Assembly: GCF_008000995.1 (NCBI RefSeq)
Contig: NZ_CP042828.1
Span: forward strand, 62,001-126,000
Direction: 5' to 3'
DNA length: 64,000 nucleotides
Origin: Ruania zhangjianzhongii
GTDB taxonomy: Bacteria; Actinomycetota; Actinomycetes; Actinomycetales; Beutenbergiaceae
Of the stretch, positions 31,709 through 42,214 are shown piece after piece (the stretch's first letter is position 1; each line of letters begins with the position of its first letter). The position numbers were made by a program, and so were the translations under genes. Below the pieces are notes generated by a model, which saw nothing but the letters and a program-made list of their open reading frames with translations, was not told the origin of the DNA and ran no database searches.

Positions 31709-32047
31709 TGGCGCGAGTTCACCAGATGGTGCGGCCGGTGGCGAGAATGACGGCGAGGTCGAGTGCCGAATAGCTCGGTCACCCGCCGGTCCAATGCTGG
31801 GATTCAGCGGCTGTCCTGAACGAATTCGGCCATCGTGGCGGGGCGCGGTGGCCCCTCGAAATGAGCGGCGATCGACCATCCATTTCCCATGACCCAGCGT
31901 CACGCCGATGTTGAGGGCATTCCTACGTGAGGCACCGAGGACGTTTCGCGGGCACCTTCCGTGAGTTTCGTCGAAGAGGTTGCAAATCAGTGTGATGTGG
32001 GTAACATGGCGCACAGCAAGCCGGAGATATTTAGGGGAGAATCCAGC
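31709..32047 (+). promoter_or_regulatory. Intergenic region with candidate promoter
   Basis: 339 bp without a gene. Near the right end, TTGCAA (31980-31985), 16 bases, TAACAT (32002-32007) forms a plausible promoter for the secreted-protein gene that starts at 32048. AGGGGAGA at 32033-32040 is its ribosome-binding site. Confidence 0.5.
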
Positions 32048-33595
32048 ATGCGTCACAGAGCAGAGGGGCACCAAAACGGTGTAACCCGGTCGCTCCGATG
32101 GGCGATGCGGGGCGCTCTGAGTCTTGCTGGCGCGGCGCTTCTAGGGGGCGCGTTGACTGCGGCAGCTTCGGCCGACGATTCCCTCGTCGGCGGTCTGCTC
32201 GAGGATGCCGGTGAGGTGGTGGAGGACACCACAGGGATCGTCGGATCTGTCACCGATGTGTCTGAGTCGGAGGGCCTCACAGTTGACGTGGGCGAGTCCA
32301 CCGAGAACGAGCCAACGGACGAGTCGGCGTCCATCGTGGCGGAGGTTGTCCAGCCGGTGGTGGAGACGACCGAGGCGGTGACTGAGGCTGCTGAGCCGGT
32401 GGTGGAGACCACGGAGGCGGTGACTGAGGCTGCTGAGCCGGTGGTGGAGACCACCGAGGCGGTGACTGAGGCTGCTGAGCCGGTGGTGGAGACCACCGAG
32501 GCGGTGACTGAGGCTGCTGAGCCGGTGGTGGAGACCACCGAGGCGGTGACTGAGGCTGCTGAGCCGGTGGTGGAGACCACGGAGGCGGTGACTGAGGCCA
32601 CCGAGCCCCAGGCTGACATCGACACAAGCGCGGCGTCACAAGCCCCGGCTCCCTCTGCCACAGAAGGTGATGAACAGGCTGAACCGGTTGTATCGGAGAG
32701 CACCGTAGCCGTGGAGGACTCGGGGTCATTGCTCCGCGAGGTCACCGGATTGCTCGCACCGGTGACATCACCGATCGACGATGTTGTCGAGCCGGTGACC
32801 GGTGAGCGGATCACATCCACCGTGGGGCGGGTCGCCGACCGTGTACGCGTTCCAGTTGTGGACGAGCTGGCCGCTCCTGTGGTGGACGACGTGGTTGCCC
32901 CGGTCCTCGCCCCAGTGGTGGACGACGTGGTTGTCCCGGTGGTTGATGGAGTCGCTGCCCCCGTTCTTGCCCCGGTGCTGGACCAGGCTGCCCCGGTTCT
33001 TGCTCCGGTTCTGCAGGATGTCGTGACGCCGGTTGTCGGTTCGGTCGCTACTGAGGTGGCAACTCCGATCGTTACCTTCGTGGCAGGGGAACCCTTCGCC
33101 GCGGTGGTGATCGGTGCACCGATGGATGTCGATGACTACTCATCTGCACATCTCGTGAGCGTTTCACCGTCGATACCGCTGGATGTTGATCCTCCCGCGG
33201 CGGAGTGGGTTGACGTCGAGACTCCGGTGTCAGAAGCGGGAGACGTGAACGCCGGGCGAGTGTCCGCGCCTTCGGCCGAGCTTGCTTTCGTTGCTCAGCC
33301 TTTTGCCGAGGTGGACGCGAACGCCACTAGCGCGCCGAACGGAACTGCCGTTGCGGCCGCGGCCAGCAATCCTGGTGCAGGTGAGGCTGGCGGCCAGAAC
33401 GCACCGACCCCGGCGGGAGCCCCCACGTCCGCGCCGACCACCGCAAGTTCGGCCGGTCAGGCGTTCGGGGCGGGATACGCCGACGCTGTCGGCGGGCTGT
33501 TGCTGCCTGCAAACGCTTTGAGCACTGACTTGGCGGCGTCAACGCTGCCGACTGTCGCTGAGGTCATCCTCAAGGTCGCTGTCGCTCCTGACTGA
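32048..33595 (+). CDS. Secreted Val/Thr/Glu-rich repeat protein
   Basis: 515 residues, not recognised. A Sec signal peptide (about residues 1-43) ends AASA before DDS. Residues 103-186 are six copies of a 14-residue unit PVVETTEAVTEAAE. A second Val/Pro-rich repeat region (about 270-345) has units such as APVVDDVVAPVLAPVV. The C-terminal part is Ala/Pro/Gly-rich and ends in a helical segment without a sorting signal or basic tail. Start at the ATG at 32048, seven bases after AGGGGAGA, rather than the upstream ATG at 31961. Heads a run of three repeat-rich secreted proteins; an extended envelope or matrix protein is likely. Confidence 0.75.
   Translation: MRHRAEGHQNGVTRSLRWAMRGALSLAGAALLGGALTAAASADDSLVGGLLEDAGEVVEDTTGIVGSVTDVSESEGLTVDVGESTENEPTDESASIVAEVVQPVVETTEAVTEAAEPVVETTEAVTEAAEPVVETTEAVTEAAEPVVETTEAVTEAAEPVVETTEAVTEAAEPVVETTEAVTEATEPQADIDTSAASQAPAPSATEGDEQAEPVVSESTVAVEDSGSLLREVTGLLAPVTSPIDDVVEPVTGERITSTVGRVADRVRVPVVDELAAPVVDDVVAPVLAPVVDDVVVPVVDGVAAPVLAPVLDQAAPVLAPVLQDVVTPVVGSVATEVATPIVTFVAGEPFAAVVIGAPMDVDDYSSAHLVSVSPSIPLDVDPPAAEWVDVETPVSEAGDVNAGRVSAPSAELAFVAQPFAEVDANATSAPNGTAVAAAASNPGAGEAGGQNAPTPAGAPTSAPTTASSAGQAFGAGYADAVGGLLLPANALSTDLAASTLPTVAEVILKVAVAPD
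32354..32605 (+). repeat. Six tandem copies of a 42-bp unit
   Basis: In-frame repeat coding PVVETTEAVTEAAE. Copies differ at only a few bases (for example gacgacc against gaccacg or gaccacc), showing recent expansion or homogenisation. Copy number is likely to vary between strains. Confidence 0.95.
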
Positions 33596-33678: not shown

Positions 33679-36570
33679 ATGCATACCTACTTAAGGCGCG
33701 CGCTGTATACATCGCTGCTCGCCGGTGGGCTTACGATCGTTGGATCGGCAGGAGCTCAAGCTGTTTCCGATGGGCCCCCGATAGTGATGGAAACCGTCCA
33801 AGGGACCATCGCGAATGATGCCGGCATGACCGGCCCTGCACCCACCACAGTCGAAGCGTGCGACGCGCCTTCGGATGAAACTTCCACGAATGACAGCGGG
33901 GACGCCAGCGACGCTGGTGGACTCGTTTCTTCAGTTGTCGGCACCGTGGAATCGGCAATCGACCTTGAGGATGGCGGGATCCTTGAGGGGTCCTCCTCCG
34001 TTGAGGATGAACAGGCCGTGGACGAGGGCACAGTTGAAGCGTGCGCCACGGCCGAGGCACCAACTGACGCCCAAGAGGACTCGTCCTCGCCAGACGCTGC
34101 CGATCAGACCGAGCCGAGCGCGACTACAGCCTCGACCGCGGTAGTCCAGCCGGACGATCAGGCTGACAGCTCAGAGCCTGATGCTCAGAATGCGGCTTCA
34201 GACAGCGGTGAGAACGCAGAGGCGAATCACGATGAGTCGGCAGTGGCCGTCACCGCCGAGTCCACTGAAACGGTGGCCGAGACGGACGACGGCCAGGACG
34301 AATCGGTGACTGCTACCGCTGGTACCACTGCTGAGACCAACCAGCCTGTGAGCGCGGAAAGCACTGACGATTGCTGCTCGGTGGAGGATGTCACCAGCGA
34401 GGGCGCCGATGGGTCTGACGGGTCCGATGGGTCTGATGGCACGGACGGGTCTGATGGCACGGACGGTTCCGATGGCACGGACGGTTCCGACGGCACGGAC
34501 GGTTCCGACGGCACGGACGGTTCCGATGGCACGGACGGTTCCGATGGCACGGACGGTTCCGATGGCACGGACGGTTCCGATGGCACGGACGGTTCCGATG
34601 GCACGGACGGTTCCGATGGCACGGACGGTTCCGATGGCACGGACGGTTCCGATGGCACGGACGGCACCGATGGCACCGACGGCACCGATGGATCTGACGG
34701 GACAAGCGGCGGCGATGAGGCGAAGCCGTGCTGCACGATCGATGACGTGACCGGCGAGGAAAGTGATCGGACCGACGGTCTCCTCGGAGGTGTCACTGAC
34801 GGTCTGCTTGGTGGTCTGCTTGATGGTGGACTTGGTGGTTTGATCGGTGGGTCTGATGGCACGGACGGTTCCGATCGCACCGATGGCACCGATGGCACCG
34901 ATGGCACCGACGGCACGGATGGTTCCGATGGCACTGATGGCACTGATGGCACTGATGGCACTGATGGCACCGACGGGTCTGATGGCACCGATGGCACGGA
35001 TGGCACGGATGGTTCCGACGGGTCTGATGGCACCGATGGCACGGATGGCACGGATGGCACTGATGGGTCTGATGGCACGGATGGTTCCGATGGCACCGAC
35101 GGGTCTGATGGCACCGACGGGTCTGATGGCACCGACGGGTCTGATGGCACCGATGGCACGGATGGCACGGATGGTTCCGATGGCACCGATGGCACCGATG
35201 GCACCGATGGCACCGATGGCACCGATGGCACCGATGGCACGGATGGTTCCGATGGCACCGATGGCACCGATGGTTCCGATGGCACCGATGGCACCGATGG
35301 CACCGATGGCACCGATGGCACCGATGGCACCGATGGTTCCGATGGCACCGACGGGTCTGATGGCACGGATAGCACGGATGGCACCGATGGCAGTGATGGG
35401 TCTGACGGGTCCGGTGGTCTGCTCGGTGGTGTGACTGGTGGTCTGCTTGATGGTGGACTTGGTGGTTTGATCGGTGGTTCTGATGGCACGGACGGGTCTG
35501 ACGGCACTGACGGCACCGATGGGTCTGATGGCACCGATGGCGCTGATGGTTCCGATGGCGCTGATGGTTCCGATGGTTCCGGTGGTCTGCTCGGTGGTGT
35601 GACTGGTGGTCTGCTTGATGGTGGACTTGGTGGTTTGATCGGTGGTTCCGATGGCACCGATGGGTCTGACGGCACCGATGGCACCGATGGCGCTGATGGG
35701 ACCGATGGTTCCGATGGTTCCGGTGGTCTGCTCGGTGGTGTGACTGGTGGTCTGCTTGATGGTGGACTTGGTGGTTTGATCGGTGGTTCCGATGGCACCG
35801 ATGGGTCTGACGGCACCGACGGCACCGACGGCACCGACGGCACCGACGGCACCGACGGGACCGGTGGTTCCGATGGGACCGATGGCACTGATGGTTCCGA
35901 TGGTTCTGACGGCACCGGTGGTTCTGACGGCACCGATGGCGCCGATGGGACCGACGGCGACTCCGACACGGTGGTATTCACCGTGGACGAAGCCATCCTG
36001 GAGGCGGAAGGTTCCGGCGAGCAGGTGCGGATGACGATCGTGGTGACCAATAGCAGTGACACTGCGGTCGAGAGCCTGATCGCTCGGTCGGACGTTGGTG
36101 AGCTGACCTGTCAGTCAACGACTTTGGCAGCCGGTGAATCCACTAGCTGTTCGGTCACATTCACCCCAACCGACGGTATGGATACCGTGACCGTGGCATT
36201 CGTCGATGAGGCGGATCCGACAACGGCCACGACGTACCAGTTCGCGTACAACGGCCCGAGCGGCGCCGGAGACGGGACCGCGGGAGTAGTAGGTGTCTCG
36301 GACGTGACTGGTGGCGTGACCTCGCCGAGTGGCGGGTCGATCGTGACTGGTGGCGTGACCTCGCCGAGTGGCGGGTCGATCGTGACCGGTGGCCTCGTTG
36401 GATCCATCGTCCCGGGCGATAGTGGTCTCACGGGCTACCCAATCGGGGTAGAGATGACTCCTCAGCTCGCAGCGACAGGTGCTGGCACGTATTACCTTGC
36501 TGGGATCTCGGCCATGTTGATACTTGCTGGCCTGGTTCTGATGCGTCGTCGTCGGACAGTAACCAACTGA
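33679..36570 (+). CDS. Collagen-like Gly-Ser/Thr-Asp repeat surface protein with LAATG sorting signal
   Basis: 963 residues, unknown function. Signal peptide about 1-28 (ending GAQA), then an acidic Ala/Ser/Glu/Asp stalk to about 230. Long arrays of Gly-Thr-Asp and Gly-Ser-Asp triplets follow in blocks. Between them lie Gly/Leu modules (GLLGGVTGGLLDGGLGGLIG) near residues 370-395, 577-600, 637-658 and 683-705. CC pairs (C232-C233, C351-C352) flank the first array. A beta-sandwich domain covers about 762-865, with Cys in VGELTC and TSCSVTFTP. The end is LAATG (930-934), a hydrophobic helix and RRRR: a class E sortase signal. Probably a wall-anchored fibre; the triplets could bind Ca2+. Confidence 0.8.
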   Translation: MHTYLRRALYTSLLAGGLTIVGSAGAQAVSDGPPIVMETVQGTIANDAGMTGPAPTTVEACDAPSDETSTNDSGDASDAGGLVSSVVGTVESAIDLEDGGILEGSSSVEDEQAVDEGTVEACATAEAPTDAQEDSSSPDAADQTEPSATTASTAVVQPDDQADSSEPDAQNAASDSGENAEANHDESAVAVTAESTETVAETDDGQDESVTATAGTTAETNQPVSAESTDDCCSVEDVTSEGADGSDGSDGSDGTDGSDGTDGSDGTDGSDGTDGSDGTDGSDGTDGSDGTDGSDGTDGSDGTDGSDGTDGSDGTDGSDGTDGSDGTDGTDGTDGTDGSDGTSGGDEAKPCCTIDDVTGEESDRTDGLLGGVTDGLLGGLLDGGLGGLIGGSDGTDGSDRTDGTDGTDGTDGTDGSDGTDGTDGTDGTDGTDGSDGTDGTDGTDGSDGSDGTDGTDGTDGTDGSDGTDGSDGTDGSDGTDGSDGTDGSDGTDGTDGTDGSDGTDGTDGTDGTDGTDGTDGTDGSDGTDGTDGSDGTDGTDGTDGTDGTDGTDGSDGTDGSDGTDSTDGTDGSDGSDGSGGLLGGVTGGLLDGGLGGLIGGSDGTDGSDGTDGTDGSDGTDGADGSDGADGSDGSGGLLGGVTGGLLDGGLGGLIGGSDGTDGSDGTDGTDGADGTDGSDGSGGLLGGVTGGLLDGGLGGLIGGSDGTDGSDGTDGTDGTDGTDGTDGTGGSDGTDGTDGSDGSDGTGGSDGTDGADGTDGDSDTVVFTVDEAILEAEGSGEQVRMTIVVTNSSDTAVESLIARSDVGELTCQSTTLAAGESTSCSVTFTPTDGMDTVTVAFVDEADPTTATTYQFAYNGPSGAGDGTAGVVGVSDVTGGVTSPSGGSIVTGGVTSPSGGSIVTGGLVGSIVPGDSGLTGYPIGVEMTPQLAATGAGTYYLAGISAMLILAGLVLMRRRRTVTN
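34401..34698 (+). repeat. First Gly-Ser/Thr-Asp triplet array
   Basis: About 98 consecutive G-X-D triplets. Most of it is an 18-bp DNA unit coding Asp-Gly-Thr-Asp-Gly-Ser, repeated a dozen or so times with almost no sequence drift. Flanked on both sides by Cys-Cys motifs. Confidence 0.9.
34849..35415 (+). repeat. Second and longest Gly-Ser/Thr-Asp triplet array
   Basis: Roughly 185 triplets, interrupted only by single substitutions (SDR, DSTD). The ratio of Thr to Ser is higher than in the first array. Third positions vary (gat/gac, acc/acg/act), so it has been homogenised less recently. Confidence 0.9.
35416..35963 (+). repeat. Alternating Gly/Leu modules and short Gly-X-Asp arrays
   Basis: Three nearly identical copies of a module coding GLLGGVTGGLLDGGLGGLIG begin at about 35410, 35581 and 35725. 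Each is followed by 10-30 Gly-X-Asp triplets. The DNA of the modules is almost invariant, which indicates recent segmental duplication. Confidence 0.88.
36466..36567 (+). other. Class E sortase sorting signal (protein segment)
   Basis: Codes LAATG at residues 930-934, a membrane helix of about 20 residues and a C-terminal MRRRRTVTN tail. LAxTG is the motif recognised by class E sortases of high-GC actinobacteria, in place of LPxTG. No sortase gene is in this window. Confidence 0.8.
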
Positions 36571-36622: not shown

Positions 36623-36804
36623 CCCGAGAACACCCTCTTATCGGACGGCTGATGCGCCGTCCCCAGAGCGGCGTCAATCAGCAACAGATGACAAACCCTT
36701 CAGTATCCCTTCGACCCATTGAGGGCTACTTGATTTGAGACTGGTGCGATCCATCGGCCTCATGAACACCTGAGAAATCACGATGATGAGAATGGAGAAT
36801 GAGA

Positions 36805-39369
36805 ATGTCCTTCACTACCTGGGGTCGCCGACAAGGTGACTCCGAACACGGAAGGGTCGAGAGGAAGTTGTCTCCGGCACTCGCACGCCGCACGACACGG
36901 ACTGCGGCATCGGTCGTCATTGCCGCAGCCGCGAGCGTGGGACTGATGTCCTCCGCGATGGCAGCACCGGATGACCCGGATGATGCACAACTGGTGAGTA
37001 CCACCGGTGCCGCCCAGGATGGCACGGGGTCTGGAGGCCAGGACAGCGGCCACGGTGGGCACGGGAGCGGCGACGCTGAAGAGTCCAGTGGTGGGCATGG
37101 GAGCGGCAACGCTGCCGGAGAGTCCGGTGGCGAACACGGAGGCCACGGGGGTGGAGACGCCTGTACGTTCTTCCTGGACCACATGTGGGCCAACGAAGAC
37201 GGCATTCCGCTGATCGGGACGTTTTCCCACTTCAACGAGTTCCACACAGATGACGCCTACGAAAATCTGGTTCTTTCGCTGGCCAGCGGCGCCATTGGTA
37301 ACTCCGACATGCCGGTGATTGACATCTACGGCGGTCCGTTGGGCTGGATTCCCGTCTTCAATCCCTCGCACGTGAAGGGGCACGGTACCGACTACGTCAC
37401 CTTGCTCACCTCGTGTGGCGGGATTGGTATCCCTCTGGACACCAATGACCTGACAACTCTGAATGTCCCGTCGGTTGAGGAACTGACGAACCTTTCAGAC
37501 TTGATTATTCCGGGTCTGCCGAGTCCAGAAATGCTGACGGATCCCAGCTACATCTGGGAGACGACGGACGCGTCTGCCATCCTGGATCGGCTCGATCCTG
37601 AGACGATGCTGAACGTGAATGACTACGTGAGCTTCGCCGGTGATCATCTTGATACCTGGCGACTGCTTTGGGAAACGGCGCTGGAGAGTGTATCTAGCGG
37701 CAACCCCACCGAAATTCTGGAAGTCCTGCAGATTACGGAGAACATCAACACCCTCTCATCGCTCTCCACCGTTCTCGGCGGAGATGCGTCGAGTGACACT
37801 GGCGACGGTGAGGGCGGCCTGCTTGGTGGTCTGCCGACGGATGACCTCCTTGGTGATTTGCCGGTCGTGGGTGGCGATCCGGCCGACGGGAGCGATGAAA
37901 CCGACGGCACCGATGGGACCGACGGCACCGATGGGACCGACGGCACCGATGGGACCGACGGCACCGATGGGACCGATGGGACCGACGGCACCGATGGGAC
38001 CGATGGTGACTCGGGCACGGTGGCTTTCACTGTGGACGAGGCGATCATGGAGGTCATTGCGGCTGCTGATACCCCGGATGGTGTGGGGGAGCAGGTTCAG
38101 GTGACGATCCCGGTGACCAATAACGGTGACTCGCCGATCGCGACTCTGGCTGCTCAGTCTGATGTTGGTGAGGTGACCTGTGAGGTCGCGGAGCTGGCTG
38201 CTGGGGAGTCCACCACCTGCTCGGTGACGTTCACGCCGACTGAGGGCGAGAACGCGGTGACGGTGACGTTCGTCGACGAGACGGACGACTTCAAGACTGG
38301 TTCCTTCCAGTTCGTGCTCACCTACGAAGGCACAGACGGGACCGATGGTTCTGACGGCACTGACGGCACTGACGGCACCGACGGCACCGACGGCACCGAC
38401 GGTGACTTGCTGGGTGGTCTGCCCACTGGTGACCTGCTCGGTGGTCTGCCCACTGGTGACTTGCTGGGTGGTCTGCCCACTGGTGACCTGCTCGGTGGTC
38501 TGCCCACTGGTGACTTGCTGGGTGGTCTGCCGACCGGTGACCTGCTCGGTGGTCTGCCGACCGGTGATCTGCTCGGTGGTGACTCGGGCGAAGGGACTGA
38601 TGGCGGTTCGGGCACGGTGGCTTTCACTGTGGACGAGGCGATCATGGAGGTCATCGCGGCTGCTGATACCCCGGATGGTGTGGGGGAGCAGGTTCAGGTG
38701 ACGATCCCGGTGACCAATAACGGTGACTCGCCGATCGCGACTCTGGCCGCTCAGTCTGATGTTGGTGAGGTGACCTGTGAGGTCGCGGAGCTGGCTGCTG
38801 GGGAGTCCACCACCTGCTCGGTGACGTTCACGCCGACTGAGGGCGAGAACGCGGTGACGGTGACGTTCGTCGACGAGACGGACGACTCCAAGACTGGTTC
38901 CTTCCAGTTCGTGCTCACCTACGAAGGCACCGACGGGACCGATGGTTCTGACGGCACTGACGGCACTGACGGCACCGATGGCACCGACGGGACCGACGGG
39001 ACCGACGGCACCGATGGTGGATCGGGCACGGCGGCTTTCGTTGTGAATCAGCCCACCCTGCAGGTCGTTCCGGCCGCTGATACTCCTGACGATGTCGGGG
39101 AGCAGGTCCGGATGACCATTCCGGTGACCAACAACGGAGACACCACCGTCACGTTGGGCGCTCAGACCGAAAGTGGTGAGGTGACCTGTGAGGCGGCGGA
39201 GCTGGCTGCTGGGGAGTCCACCATGTGCTCGGTGACGTTCACGCCGACTGAGGGCGAGAACGCGGTGACGGTGACGTTCGTTGACGAGACGGACGACTCC
39301 AAGGTCACTTCCTACCGGTTCCTCTGCAACTACGCCAGCGCGGCCAGTGCTGGCGGGAGCCACTCCTGA
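36805..39369 (+). CDS. Secreted protein with His/Gly-rich segment, Gly-Thr-Asp arrays and three beta-sandwich domains
   Basis: About 854 residues, unknown. Signal peptide to about 56 (ending SAMA). Residues 70-120 are Gly/His-rich (GHGGHGSG type), possibly metal-binding. A unique domain of about 200 residues follows (CTFFLDHMWANEDGIPLIG..., GHGTDYVTLLTSCGG). Then come Gly-Thr-Asp arrays, six GDLLGGLPT repeats, and three beta-sandwich domains with a conserved Cys pair (EVTCE and TTCSVTFTPTEGENAV). The same domain ends the upstream protein. No sorting signal, so it may be released or attach to its neighbour. The ATG at 36805 is chosen because GGAGA lies six bases upstream. Confidence 0.76.
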   Translation: MSFTTWGRRQGDSEHGRVERKLSPALARRTTRTAASVVIAAAASVGLMSSAMAAPDDPDDAQLVSTTGAAQDGTGSGGQDSGHGGHGSGDAEESSGGHGSGNAAGESGGEHGGHGGGDACTFFLDHMWANEDGIPLIGTFSHFNEFHTDDAYENLVLSLASGAIGNSDMPVIDIYGGPLGWIPVFNPSHVKGHGTDYVTLLTSCGGIGIPLDTNDLTTLNVPSVEELTNLSDLIIPGLPSPEMLTDPSYIWETTDASAILDRLDPETMLNVNDYVSFAGDHLDTWRLLWETALESVSSGNPTEILEVLQITENINTLSSLSTVLGGDASSDTGDGEGGLLGGLPTDDLLGDLPVVGGDPADGSDETDGTDGTDGTDGTDGTDGTDGTDGTDGTDGTDGTDGDSGTVAFTVDEAIMEVIAAADTPDGVGEQVQVTIPVTNNGDSPIATLAAQSDVGEVTCEVAELAAGESTTCSVTFTPTEGENAVTVTFVDETDDFKTGSFQFVLTYEGTDGTDGSDGTDGTDGTDGTDGTDGDLLGGLPTGDLLGGLPTGDLLGGLPTGDLLGGLPTGDLLGGLPTGDLLGGLPTGDLLGGDSGEGTDGGSGTVAFTVDEAIMEVIAAADTPDGVGEQVQVTIPVTNNGDSPIATLAAQSDVGEVTCEVAELAAGESTTCSVTFTPTEGENAVTVTFVDETDDSKTGSFQFVLTYEGTDGTDGSDGTDGTDGTDGTDGTDGTDGTDGGSGTAAFVVNQPTLQVVPAADTPDDVGEQVRMTIPVTNNGDTTVTLGAQTESGEVTCEAAELAAGESTMCSVTFTPTEGENAVTVTFVDETDDSKVTSYRFLCNYASAASAGGSHS
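37888..38010 (+). repeat. Gly-Thr-Asp array in the third surface protein
   Basis: Tandem ACCGACGGCACCGATGGG-type units coding Thr-Asp-Gly, shorter than in the upstream gene. Similar short arrays recur at 38334-38400 and 38931-39018, each between two folded domains, so they act as spacers. Confidence 0.88.
38011..38333 (+). repeat. Duplicated 323-bp beta-sandwich domain, copy 1
   Basis: Nearly identical to 38608-38930, with an offset of exactly 597 bp. I see only about three base differences (for example gtcattgcgg against gtcatcgcgg). This points to recent duplication or gene conversion. A third, more diverged copy lies at about 39019-39350. Confidence 0.92.
38401..38562 (+). repeat. Six tandem 27-bp units coding GDLLGGLPT
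   Basis: Six full copies and a final partial unit to 38580. The units alternate between two codon versions (gacttgctg and gacctgctc), so the true duplication unit was probably 54 bp. Confidence 0.93.
38608..38930 (+). repeat. Duplicated 323-bp beta-sandwich domain, copy 2
   Basis: Second copy of the segment at 38011-38333. The following Gly-Thr-Asp spacer is also duplicated for about another 50 bp. Confidence 0.92.
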
Positions 39370-39773: not shown

Positions 39774-40505
39774 ATGACAACACGACGCACGAAGAGGCCC
39801 TTGCTGGTCGGAGGCGGAGTGCTTGCGGGCGTTGCCGCACTGGTTCTGGGGGGCGCGGTTGCTGCAAGTGCGCACGTGGGCATTGCGGAAGAGACCGTCG
39901 AAGCTGGCGCATACGAGATCCTGACCGTCAGCGTCCCGCATGGGTGTGAGGGCTCTGCCACCAACGAGGTCGCCATTCAGATGCCCGAGGGAATCAACGC
40001 CGTCACACCGACCCGCAACCCCCTGTACACAGTTGAGGCGGTCATGGAGGATCTTGATGCGCCAATCACCGATAGCCATGGCAACGAGGTCACCGAGCGG
40101 GTAGCGCAGGTCGTGTACACGGCGGAGACGCCGCTGCCGGACGAGCAACGAGATGCTTTCGAGCTCTCCTTGCAGATCCCGGAAGACGCGGCAGATTCCA
40201 CGCTCTATTTCCCGACGGTGCAAGGCTGCGAAGAGGGTGAGGCCGCATGGGTACAGATCCCCGAGGACGGCCAGGATCCCGACGATCTGGACGCCCCCGC
40301 CCCCAGCGTCGACGTTGTCGCAGCCAGTGAAGATAGCTCCGAGGTGAGCGGTGGGACTACCGACACCACGAGCGATGCTCAAGGCCCTGAGGAGGCCTCC
40401 TCGGCAGCGGATCAGACGCCGCTGCTGGTTACCTCGCTCGTGGTCGGCGGCCTCGGTCTGGTTGTCGCGGTGATTGCCCTGCTGAGGGGGCGCAAGAAGG
40501 CGTGA
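39774..40505 (+). CDS. ycnI: YcnI-family copper-binding protein (DUF1775)
   Basis: 243 residues. A signal peptide ends SASA|H, leaving His34 as the mature N terminus, which in YcnI proteins coordinates Cu(II) in a brace. The DUF1775 domain (about 34-160) includes VSVPHGCEGSATNEVAIQMPEG and AAWVQIPE, whose Trp lies near the metal site. A low-complexity Ser/Asp/Thr linker, a C-terminal helix (about 215-235) and a basic tail follow. ATG at 39774 after AAAGGGAG. Its stop overlaps the CopC-CopD start. Confidence 0.9.
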   Translation: MTTRRTKRPLLVGGGVLAGVAALVLGGAVAASAHVGIAEETVEAGAYEILTVSVPHGCEGSATNEVAIQMPEGINAVTPTRNPLYTVEAVMEDLDAPITDSHGNEVTERVAQVVYTAETPLPDEQRDAFELSLQIPEDAADSTLYFPTVQGCEEGEAAWVQIPEDGQDPDDLDAPAPSVDVVAASEDSSEVSGGTTDTTSDAQGPEEASSAADQTPLLVTSLVVGGLGLVVAVIALLRGRKKA

Positions 40506-42214
40506 TGACCTCCATCGCCGGGAAGCGACAGCCGCCACACGGCGTTTCGGCGGCCCGCTACCTGCTGGCGGCGATTCTGCTGGGCGGCTTGTTGGTTCTC
40601 ACCGGCGCGCAGTCCGCGTCCGCGCACGCAGAACTGTTGAGCACCACGCCCGAGGACGGCGCAGTGCTCGAGCAGGCCCCCGCGGACGCGGTGCTGACGT
40701 TCAACGAGCCGGTGCAGCTCATCGACGGCAGCATCCGCCTGTTTCCCGGCGATGGAGATCCCCTCATCCTCGACGCACACGTCAGCGACGCCAACGTGGT
40801 CGCGCCACTTCCCGCCGATGCGGAGAACGGTCGGTATGCGTTGAGCTACCGAGTCGTCTCCGCAGACGGACACCCGATCTCCGGCGCGATCACCTTCACC
40901 ATCGGCAATGCCAGTGATACCACCGCGGCGCCGGTCGTCGATACGCACACCTCGGCGGACGCCCAGTTCGCCCTGAGTGCCCTGACCGCGATCCAGTACC
41001 TCGGACTGCTCGTCTTCGCCGGACTGATCCTCTTCGACCGCGCGGTGCTGCGTAACCTCGGGGCGGCGGACCCACGAACCGTGCGCGTCCTGCGCTGGAC
41101 CGGTATCGGCGCAGCCGGCGCATCGATCCTGCTGGTTCCGGTGTCCGCCCTGAACGTGACAGGTGACTCCCTGTCCGCCCTCGCCACGCCATCCGTCTGG
41201 TGGGCCGGTGTGCTCTCGGCTCCGGTCACCGCAGCAGCCGTCGTGCTCGTGGGCACGGTCGGCGCATACCTTCTGGCGACGCGCAGCGCCGAACGCAGCG
41301 CCGCACGCCTACTCGCACTGGTGCCTGCCCTCCTTGCTCTTGCCGCTCCAGTCTTGGTCGGCCACACCCGACTCGTCGAGCCCCGAGCACTCGTCGCCGC
41401 CGCCGATCTCGGACATCTCCTCGCTGGCAGTTTCTGGGCGGGAGGAGTCGTGGGTCTGCTCTTGCTTCTGGCCTCGGCACGCGCCGCGGGCGACGGCGCG
41501 GCCAGCCCTGATCCGATGGGCGCCGCAGCGGTCGTCGCGAGGTTCTCCCGACTGGCGATCTGGAGCGTCGCGATCCTCGCGATCAGCGGCACCGTCATGG
41601 GCATCCTGATCGTCGGAAGTTTCGCGACGCTGTTCACCACGGGATATGGGCTCACCCTTCTGTCGAAGGTCGGGATCATCATTCCCATCGTGGCGATCGC
41701 CGGCTACAACCGATTTCGGGTCCTCCCCAAGCTCTCCACGCATCCGAGGGCACACAGGTGGCGCCACCTCAGGCGAACCCTTGGCTGCGAGGCTGCGCTC
41801 CTGGCCGTTGTCCTCACGCTCACCGGTTTCCTCACCAATCTCAGCCCGACGCACGAGCGCCACGGTGACGCCATGGGCAACACGGCGGCCGCCGAGACAG
41901 CCACCATCAGCGCGGATACCCAAGGACTCACGATCAACGGTGCTCTCGAACCTGCGTTGGCCGGTACCAACACGCTCTCGTTCACGCTCCAGTACGAGGA
42001 TGAGCCGGTCACATCGGACGAAGTCACGATCCGCGCGAGCCTGCCTGAACACGAGCTCGGACCCTTCGAGATCACCCCCGATCTCGACCCGGCGAGCGGC
42101 GAGTACTCCGCGCAACTCGCCCTACCCGTCGCAGGAACCTGGCACCTCCAAGTCATCGCTCGAGTGTCGACGTTCGCTGAACCGATCGTGTCGGTACCTG
42201 TCACTGTGCGCTGA
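40505..42214 (+). CDS. CopC-CopD fusion copper transport protein (YcnJ-like)
   Basis: 569 residues, copper uptake or resistance. A signal peptide is followed directly by mature His41 and a CopC domain (41-140: HAELLSTTPEDG, DGHPISGAI) that binds copper outside the membrane. Then comes a CopD integral membrane part of about eight helices (about 160-450), and a C-terminal YtkA-like immunoglobulin-type domain (about 465-569). Start at ATG 40505, overlapping the ycnI TGA; GTG at 40502 is an alternative. Same arrangement as Bacillus YcnJ next to YcnI. Confidence 0.9.
   Translation: MTSIAGKRQPPHGVSAARYLLAAILLGGLLVLTGAQSASAHAELLSTTPEDGAVLEQAPADAVLTFNEPVQLIDGSIRLFPGDGDPLILDAHVSDANVVAPLPADAENGRYALSYRVVSADGHPISGAITFTIGNASDTTAAPVVDTHTSADAQFALSALTAIQYLGLLVFAGLILFDRAVLRNLGAADPRTVRVLRWTGIGAAGASILLVPVSALNVTGDSLSALATPSVWWAGVLSAPVTAAAVVLVGTVGAYLLATRSAERSAARLLALVPALLALAAPVLVGHTRLVEPRALVAAADLGHLLAGSFWAGGVVGLLLLLASARAAGDGAASPDPMGAAAVVARFSRLAIWSVAILAISGTVMGILIVGSFATLFTTGYGLTLLSKVGIIIPIVAIAGYNRFRVLPKLSTHPRAHRWRHLRRTLGCEAALLAVVLTLTGFLTNLSPTHERHGDAMGNTAAAETATISADTQGLTINGALEPALAGTNTLSFTLQYEDEPVTSDEVTIRASLPEHELGPFEITPDLDPASGEYSAQLALPVAGTWHLQVIARVSTFAEPIVSVPVTVR

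Follow-up and report, generated by a model that had tools for sequence, protein, structure and literature searches.

Collagen-like domains of Gram-positive bacteria carry proline at 31.0% of the X positions of their Gly-X-Y triplets and threonine at 48.3% of the Y positions, with arginine or lysine at 9.7% and aspartate plus glutamate at 5.9% of Y, as set out in the relevant part of PMC3368898. For the Ser-Asp repeats of staphylococcal surface proteins a wall-spanning role has been proposed, while their function is called unknown in the corresponding section of PMC3794999. The gene considered here, gene B, lies in a stretch of 64,000 nucleotides of Ruania zhangjianzhongii (assembly GCF_008000995.1, contig NZ_CP042828.1, positions 62,001 to 126,000 of the forward strand), hereafter the window, and is predicted to encode a secreted, sortase-anchored protein dominated by arrays of G-(S/T)-D triplets. 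It is proposed, with moderate confidence, that these arrays form an extended, hydrated polyanionic stalk or brush, and not an obligate collagen triple helix.

The genome of the window (G000) is grouped in the same genus as Ruania albidiflava (G016), in a family named Ruaniaceae by NCBI. It was compared with a congener (G015), Occultella gossypii (G010), R. albidiflava itself and a member of another genus of the family (G002).

Composition and conservation of the triplet arrays

Tracts of at least three G-(S/T/A)-D triplets in gene B add up to 129 triplets (76 GTD, 48 GSD and 5 GAD) in nine tracts, which make up 40% of the protein and are interrupted by a CC motif, hydrophobic LLGG blocks and imperfect triplets. 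The initial annotation described several hundred consecutive G-X-Y triplets with X mostly Ser or Thr and Y Asp; the composition is confirmed, but the length was overstated, the longest tracts having 54 and 33 triplets. In runs of at least five G-x-x, with X and Y not preselected, Asp occupies Y in 127 of 140 triplets and Pro never occurs at X, and in the 54-triplet tract (array II) Asp is at Y in 54/54, with no Pro, Lys or Arg at all. The absence of proline that had been claimed is true of the arrays and not of the whole protein, in which 20 prolines are found elsewhere. Because 2000 shuffles of the same protein reach at most four consecutive G-x-D triplets, against 54 in gene B, the array is not a product of chance. 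The net charge of residues 29-925 is -212, the array hydropathy is 0.329 against a disorder boundary of 0.533, and the charge-hydropathy boundary places residues 29-230 among disordered sequences. The parts of the protein, all on the plus strand and in window coordinates, are as follows.

33679..36570, plus strand: gene B, secreted, sortase-anchored G-(S/T)-D array protein of 963 aa; a single open frame fills the interval, orthologues exist and third codon positions are the most divergent
33679..33762, plus strand: signal-peptide-like N-terminus, residues 1-28, by inspection only (RR, hydrophobic core, AQA; the G015 and G010 proteins start alike)
33763..34371, plus strand: acidic Ser/Thr/Ala-rich region, residues 29-231, from the translation
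34372..34395, plus strand: CC motif 1, CCSVEDVT, residues 232-239, from the sequence
34402..34698, plus strand: array I, 33 triplets, chiefly alternating GSD and GTD, by triplet count
34729..34752, plus strand: CC motif 2, CCTIDDVT, residues 351-358, from the sequence
34777..34851, plus strand: hydrophobic LLGG block 1, residues 367-391, from the sequence
34885..35370, plus strand: array II, 54 unbroken triplets (40 GTD, 14 GSD), by triplet count
35413..35787, plus strand: region of three more LLGG blocks, identical in sequence (35413-35478, 35581-35646 and 35722-35787), with short arrays in between
35785..35955, plus strand: final tracts of 8, 5 and 4 triplets, by triplet count
35965..36255, plus strand: predicted Ig-like beta-sandwich domain, residues 763-859, with Cys 811 and 824 (Pfam ASH, below cut-off)
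36466..36567, plus strand: LAATG sorting signal, hydrophobic stretch and RRRR tail, residues 930-963, from the sequence and TIGR01167

The ATG is preceded, 7 bases upstream, by AGGAG as read from the sequence, and a promoter and terminator scan gave sites no more frequent than in shuffled sequence. The match of the beta-sandwich region to Pfam ASH is 13.3 bits, under the cut-off of 27, and its relative in G015 is over the cut-off for CARDB (26.6 vs 22.7 bits); a tail rich in G, S, T and V links it to LAATG.

Orthologues of gene B are present in G015 (1345 aa), G010 (663 aa) and G016 (a fragment cut by the contig end), and they retain both ends and the gene order. A plain protein search gave matches in 22 of 24 family genomes, many through low-complexity stretches and some with internal stops, and these were not counted as relatives. 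Over the 191 codons of the non-repeat C-terminus, G000 and G015 differ 51, 36 and 88 times at the first, second and third codon positions. For glycine inside the arrays, G000 uses GGC79/GGT29/GGG21/GGA1 and G015 uses GGC41/GGT2/GGG88/GGA73, both sets encoding G-(T/S)-D; the chi-square of this difference (137, p 1.6e-29) is indicative only, repeat units being copies. As the array Gly codons differ so strongly between congeners and the triplet residues hardly at all, the arrays must have been turned over independently in their DNA with the protein kept as G-(T/S)-D, which suggests selection on the protein. Single steps on a minimum-spanning tree of distinct 9-mers were non-synonymous in 8/23 cases in G000, 11/20 in G015 and 8/19 in G010, where a fraction of 0.73 is expected (P = 0.00017, 0.068 and 0.0044), with dN/dS-like ratios of 0.20, 0.46 and 0.27 in the three species. 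Pro stands at X in 0/140, 1/208 and 3/39 triplets of G000, G015 and G010, though a Ser codon TCN is one transition away from a Pro codon CCN, and Asp stands at Y in 194/208 triplets of G015 and 23/39 of G010.

Repeats of this kind open other frames too, for instance an antisense open reading frame of 611 aa on the minus strand at 34227-36062, rich in P-S-V and P-S-D triplets, which we take as a side effect of the repeat. Such frames would fit an array of untranslated DNA expanded by slippage, with the gene B frame incidental, an explanation that is very improbable in view of the orthologues that keep both ends and gene order, the excess of third-position differences in the C-terminus, and the array codons that differ while the residues hardly do.

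Collagen helix, calcium fibre or acidic stalk

Export and anchoring of the protein, as stated in the initial annotation, are supported at the level of sequence. Gene B combines a signal-peptide-like start, an L-x-x-T-G signal, a hydrophobic stretch and a basic tail with a sortase in the genome, features that together identify it as a predicted sortase-anchored protein. Its anchor scores 21.6 bits with TIGR01167, over the cut-off, in the genome frame (15.1 against a cut-off of 15.9 for the whole protein), and the same model is over cut-off in the orthologues of G015, G010 and G016. The sole sortase match in the own genome, ~0.9 kb left of the window, belongs to class E by NCBIfam (266.7 bits, cut-off 160). 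LAXTG is described as the class E sortase signal in the pertinent part of PMC5148588, and the LAATG of gene B fits this preference; the orthologue anchors differ from it, being LPATG in G015 and G010 and LPSTG in G016.

Gene B is labelled as collagen by automatic annotation, and its match to Pfam Collagen PF01391 reaches 149.8 bits against a cut-off of 27.2. 'Collagen-like' is therefore apt for the Gly periodicity and the Pfam model but not for the usual stabilisers, and it is suggested that the label may rest on glycine periodicity alone. For comparison, 198 genomes of the phylum were searched (85 with a match), and 28 collagen-like tracts of at least 10 triplets were taken from the best loci, 28 of 30 being used, with the own locus (L085) and L074 (7 triplets) left out; L070, L077, L080 and L088 were retained, although their frame is possibly wrong. 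In these tracts Pro at X has a mean of 0.29 and Asp at Y a mean of 0.06 with a maximum of 0.33, whereas the values for array II are 0 and 1.00. The charged residues of array II are of the unpaired kind only, and the tract has none of the collagen stabilisers, be it Pro at X or Y or opposite-charge pairs; in the passage of PMC7824840 on charged triplets, the triple helix is said to lose stability through charged residues that stand unpaired at X or Y and to gain it through Lys-Asp pairs. The contrast drawn in the initial annotation with Pro- and Lys-rich bacterial collagens is half right, judged by the shares of proline at X and of threonine and of arginine or lysine at Y in the survey cited at the outset (PMC3368898). 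Among the PDB sequences, 38 distinct entries, mostly named collagens, match gene B at E <=0.01. The best of them, 8zxl (E 2.6e-124), was considered as evidence of a collagen fold and rejected, since in the single alignment viewed the agreement is nearly confined to the glycine register and says nothing on fold.

A true acidic collagen triple helix, in which Ca2+, Mg2+ or salt would screen the repulsion, or Thr glycosylation would ease it, and CC disulfides would lock the chains, is unlikely on this evidence. It would account for the perfect Gly periodicity over 54 triplets together with the Pfam score, and for the CC pairs, which lie on the N-terminal side of the arrays in three species. The genome also has a gene of the VKOR family, a disulfide-forming family, and one of the PMT family, whose model is unspecific, matching 8/14 control genomes. 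There are bacterial triple helices that have no hydroxyproline, and in BclA a helping role is ascribed to glycosylation (PMC8968730, in the part concerned with these proteins). Against such a helix speak the long tract without Pro or any Lys or Arg partner for Asp, the absence of Pro at X when it is one base away, the Pfam and NCBIfam scans of gene B, which recognised no trimerisation domain beside the arrays, and the use of such arrays in G002 as linkers of unrelated enzymes.

These linkers emerged from 41 family loci chosen by likeness to gene B, in which 12 open reading frames (11 distinct, one gene being present twice) have a run of at least four G-x-D. Five are sortase-anchored, all of them from G002, and in 5/5 the array lies between the enzyme and the anchor, the enzymes being of GH92, GH20, NamZ, a beta-lactamase family and alkaline phosphatase, and the longest unbroken run 15 triplets. 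The remaining open reading frames lack an anchor, and a part of them are probably read in the wrong frame. Since all these loci had been chosen by likeness to gene B, anchors were also sampled in their own right. Sixty-five matches to the LPXTG anchor model were observed in the 3.7 Mb genome of G002 (sampled as L190-L219), and acidic linkers are wide-ranging there; the model is short and unspecific at the threshold used (E up to 0.5), with matches in 13/14 control genomes and scores over cut-off in 9. Thirty of the 65 were taken, 23 of them readable, along with 11 readable of 16 in the own genome, and some of these loci, such as L219 and L232, are possibly not real anchors. Acidic residues outnumber basic ones in the 150 residues before the anchor in 22/23 G002 and 11/11 own-genome loci, counts that stand without a control set of exported proteins; in the own genome L232 is barely acidic and gene B mildly so (0.10). 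Motifs of these linkers include PTD, PTE, GAD and GSD/GSN, among others, and many have no glycine period. With these reservations, G-x-D can be read as one acidic linker style among several, and a glycine at every third place is not their common feature.

It is decidedly unlikely that the arrays form an ordered Ca2+-binding fibre of another sort, for instance an Asp ladder or a polyglycine-II bundle, which would fold in the presence of Ca2+ and serve in adhesion or in the binding of mineral. Such a fibre would suit the evenly spaced Asp residues, one in each of the 129 triplets, and the retention of acid triplets despite codon turnover. Ca2+ binding as such is plausible with so many carboxylates, but it would be generic. 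An Asp spacing of i, i+3 departs from the patterns of the EF-hand/dockerin and RTX nonapeptide repeats, and neither RTX, EF-hand, dockerin nor any other described Ca2+-binding family was listed for gene B by Pfam at E up to 1 or by NCBIfam; further, linkers that lack Gly periodicity are found before the anchor of other proteins of the family. HxsA4 (NCBIfam NF038313) scored 91 bits, over its cut-off of 55, and was rejected as a match of composition, the best stretch (residues 205-282) being low-complexity acidic sequence plus array.

The acidic triple helix or Ca2+ fibre predicted in the initial annotation is accordingly not upheld as the best reading, given that the long array is devoid of the usual stabilisers and that another genus of the family uses such arrays as enzyme linkers. 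A polyanionic stalk is favoured because array II is an outlier in composition, with Y all Asp and neither Pro, Lys nor Arg, and because in G002 such arrays connect unrelated enzymes to the anchor, in a genome where other acidic linkers occur as well. Gene B would be exported and linked to the wall by the class E sortase through LAATG, and its G-(S/T)-D arrays would make up an extended, strongly hydrated stalk or brush, polyproline-II-like or disordered, whose acidic chain projects outward from the wall and binds cations loosely. The arrays, not adjoining the anchor, would form the outward part, while the LLGG blocks and CC motifs may serve as sticky and disulfide points for association of chains with one another and with the product of gene C, which has blocks of a similar kind. 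The open frame with its layout and composition, the triplet kept under differing codons, the position of C next to B and the pre-anchor use of similar arrays in G002 are observed, whereas we infer export, anchoring, extended conformation, disulfides, association with C and cation binding. At a rise of 0.31 nm per residue, residues 242-762 could span ~160 nm if fully extended.

Several observations weigh against the stalk. The arrays of gene B stand between the N-terminal region and the beta-sandwich, not directly before the anchor, and the 150 residues that do precede the anchor are only 10% acidic, so the G002 linkers offer an analogy only. Within G002, runs of at least three G.[DEN] occur in just 4 of the 23 anchor loci, some loci are not true anchors given the matches of the model in control genomes, and the acidity of anchor-proximal stretches lacks a baseline from exported proteins in general. 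As to selection, the codon chi-square assumes independent repeat units, which copies violate, the dN/dS-like result of G015 is weak (P = 0.068), and the triplet is looser in G010, with Asp at Y in 23/39 and Pro at X in 3/39. Moreover, a merely acidic linker has no need of Gly at every third position over 54 triplets, and an ordered assembly is suggested by the LLGG blocks together with the CC motifs, two elements that leave some probability to a disulfide-linked, cation-dependent acidic fibre.

Genes A and C and the surface cluster

Gene B is flanked by two further genes.

31961..33595, plus strand: gene A, secreted-looking repeat protein whose true start is probably internal, with counterparts in G015 and G010
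36799..39369, plus strand: gene C, with an N-terminal domain of no known family, three CARDB-like domains (Pfam), short GTD arrays and LLGG-type blocks

Gene A, which lies upstream of B in the three genomes where the contig reaches that far, scores over cut-off with none of the Pfam or NCBIfam families. Gene C adjoins B downstream in all four genomes with B; CARDB matches it in three stretches (9.8e-15), and its arrays have 11, 8 and 10 triplets. Its N-terminal domain occurs in 7 of 396 genomes of the order, of which three (G246, G331 and G357) carry gene C in a shorter form that lacks long G-x-D arrays, and it has no match in five more genomes of the genus that were searched (G017 to G021), so the A-B-C cluster is patchy in distribution. 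The domain (window 37156-37698, 181 aa) is 81-93% identical in nine relatives, which include Ruania, Occultella, Arthrobacter, Nesterenkonia and Brachybacterium, and 54% identical in Nocardioides (11 sequences), with invariant Cys 3 and 87 and several His. The domain is covered by none of the families of Pfam and NCBIfam, its best PDB match has E 0.59, its AlphaFold model is unusable (mean pLDDT 40.4), and none of 20 candidates on viral contigs was a relative.

Among 396 genomes of the order, three have the codon pattern for CC(S/T)(I/V)(E/D)DVT, in 2, 2 and 4 copies, and each of the three carries gene B; the reversed control pattern gave 0 in the rows of those three genomes, and G016, in which gene B is cut, has no such pattern. 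In O. gossypii (L036, 1519-3507) the CC motif occurs four times with a 20-residue period and the G-x-D arrays are short, as if the elements trade places. Near the gene B locus of G015 (L039, 2553-9950) there is a 2466-aa frame with a signal-peptide-like start, PGLPGLGD-type repeats and a LAATG end. YcnI (DUF1775) and a fusion of CopC with CopD lie downstream of gene C, at 39774-42214 of the window, and in two species the surface cluster has this copper locus as its neighbour; a copper link of the cluster was considered and rejected, as these neighbours are the same in G016 and absent in G015.

A more elaborate and improbable conjecture takes genes A, B and C together as a dedicated surface fibre, a cation-switched bacterial collagen. 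In it B would be a Pro-free collagen-type trimer with Asp at nearly every Y, able to fold only once its charge is screened by Ca2+ or salt, with CC pairs next to the arrays as locks and LLGG blocks as lacing. The arrays of gene B offer a clean natural test of triple-helix formation by (Gly-Thr/Ser-Asp)n. Were a triple helix true, the protein would be a proline-free, charge-gated collagen of biomaterials interest; if there is none, acidic triplet arrays join the Ser-Asp repeats as a stalk module, one found on several anchored enzymes of a Ruania relative.

Comparison with known systems

A literature search on Ruania with collagen and on actinobacterial collagen-like proteins showed no work on such arrays among the titles listed. 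As far as the searches go, the array is new in its length and purity and in its setting of CC motifs and LLGG blocks; new too are the conserved pairing of B with C and the use of such arrays as linkers in another genus. G-x-D runs themselves are not unique, being present elsewhere: viral contigs have 56 stretches of at least eight consecutive G-(S/P/T/A)-D codon triplets, with GAD commonest in 31/56. The contig IMGVR_UViG_2579778515_000001 (L126) holds a 39-triplet tract with 34 GSD, the longest viral tract with at least 80% GTD/GSD. Viral runs are thus often dominated by GAD, and their longest mostly GTD/GSD tract has 39 triplets against 54 in gene B.

With the streptococcal proteins Scl1 and Scl2, gene B shares secretion, a long Gly-X-Y region and a C-terminal sortase anchor. 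It falls under the cut-offs of their models, with 146.1 against 325 for Scl2/SclB (NF038329; 262.1 for the G015 orthologue) and 31.7 against 400 for Scl1/SclA (NF038330). Unlike them, it has a long array without Pro or Lys and with Asp at nearly every Y, and LLGG blocks interrupt its arrays, after which comes a predicted beta-sandwich.

The G-(S/T/A/N)-D pre-anchor linkers of G002 have the triplet chemistry, the bacterial family and sortase anchoring in common with gene B, but they are shorter, lie next to the anchor and are borne by enzymes, whereas gene B has no enzyme domain. The staphylococcal Ser-Asp proteins (ClfA, Sdr) resemble it in their long, acidic, low-complexity arrays of S/T and D and in the sortase anchor. 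They differ in that the repeat is an SD dipeptide there and a G-(S/T)-D tripeptide here, that gene B has no adhesive or ligand-binding A-domain by Pfam at E up to 1, and that its array is not directly before the anchor. By analogy, the favoured view is that the arrays of gene B work like the staphylococcal Ser-Asp repeats.

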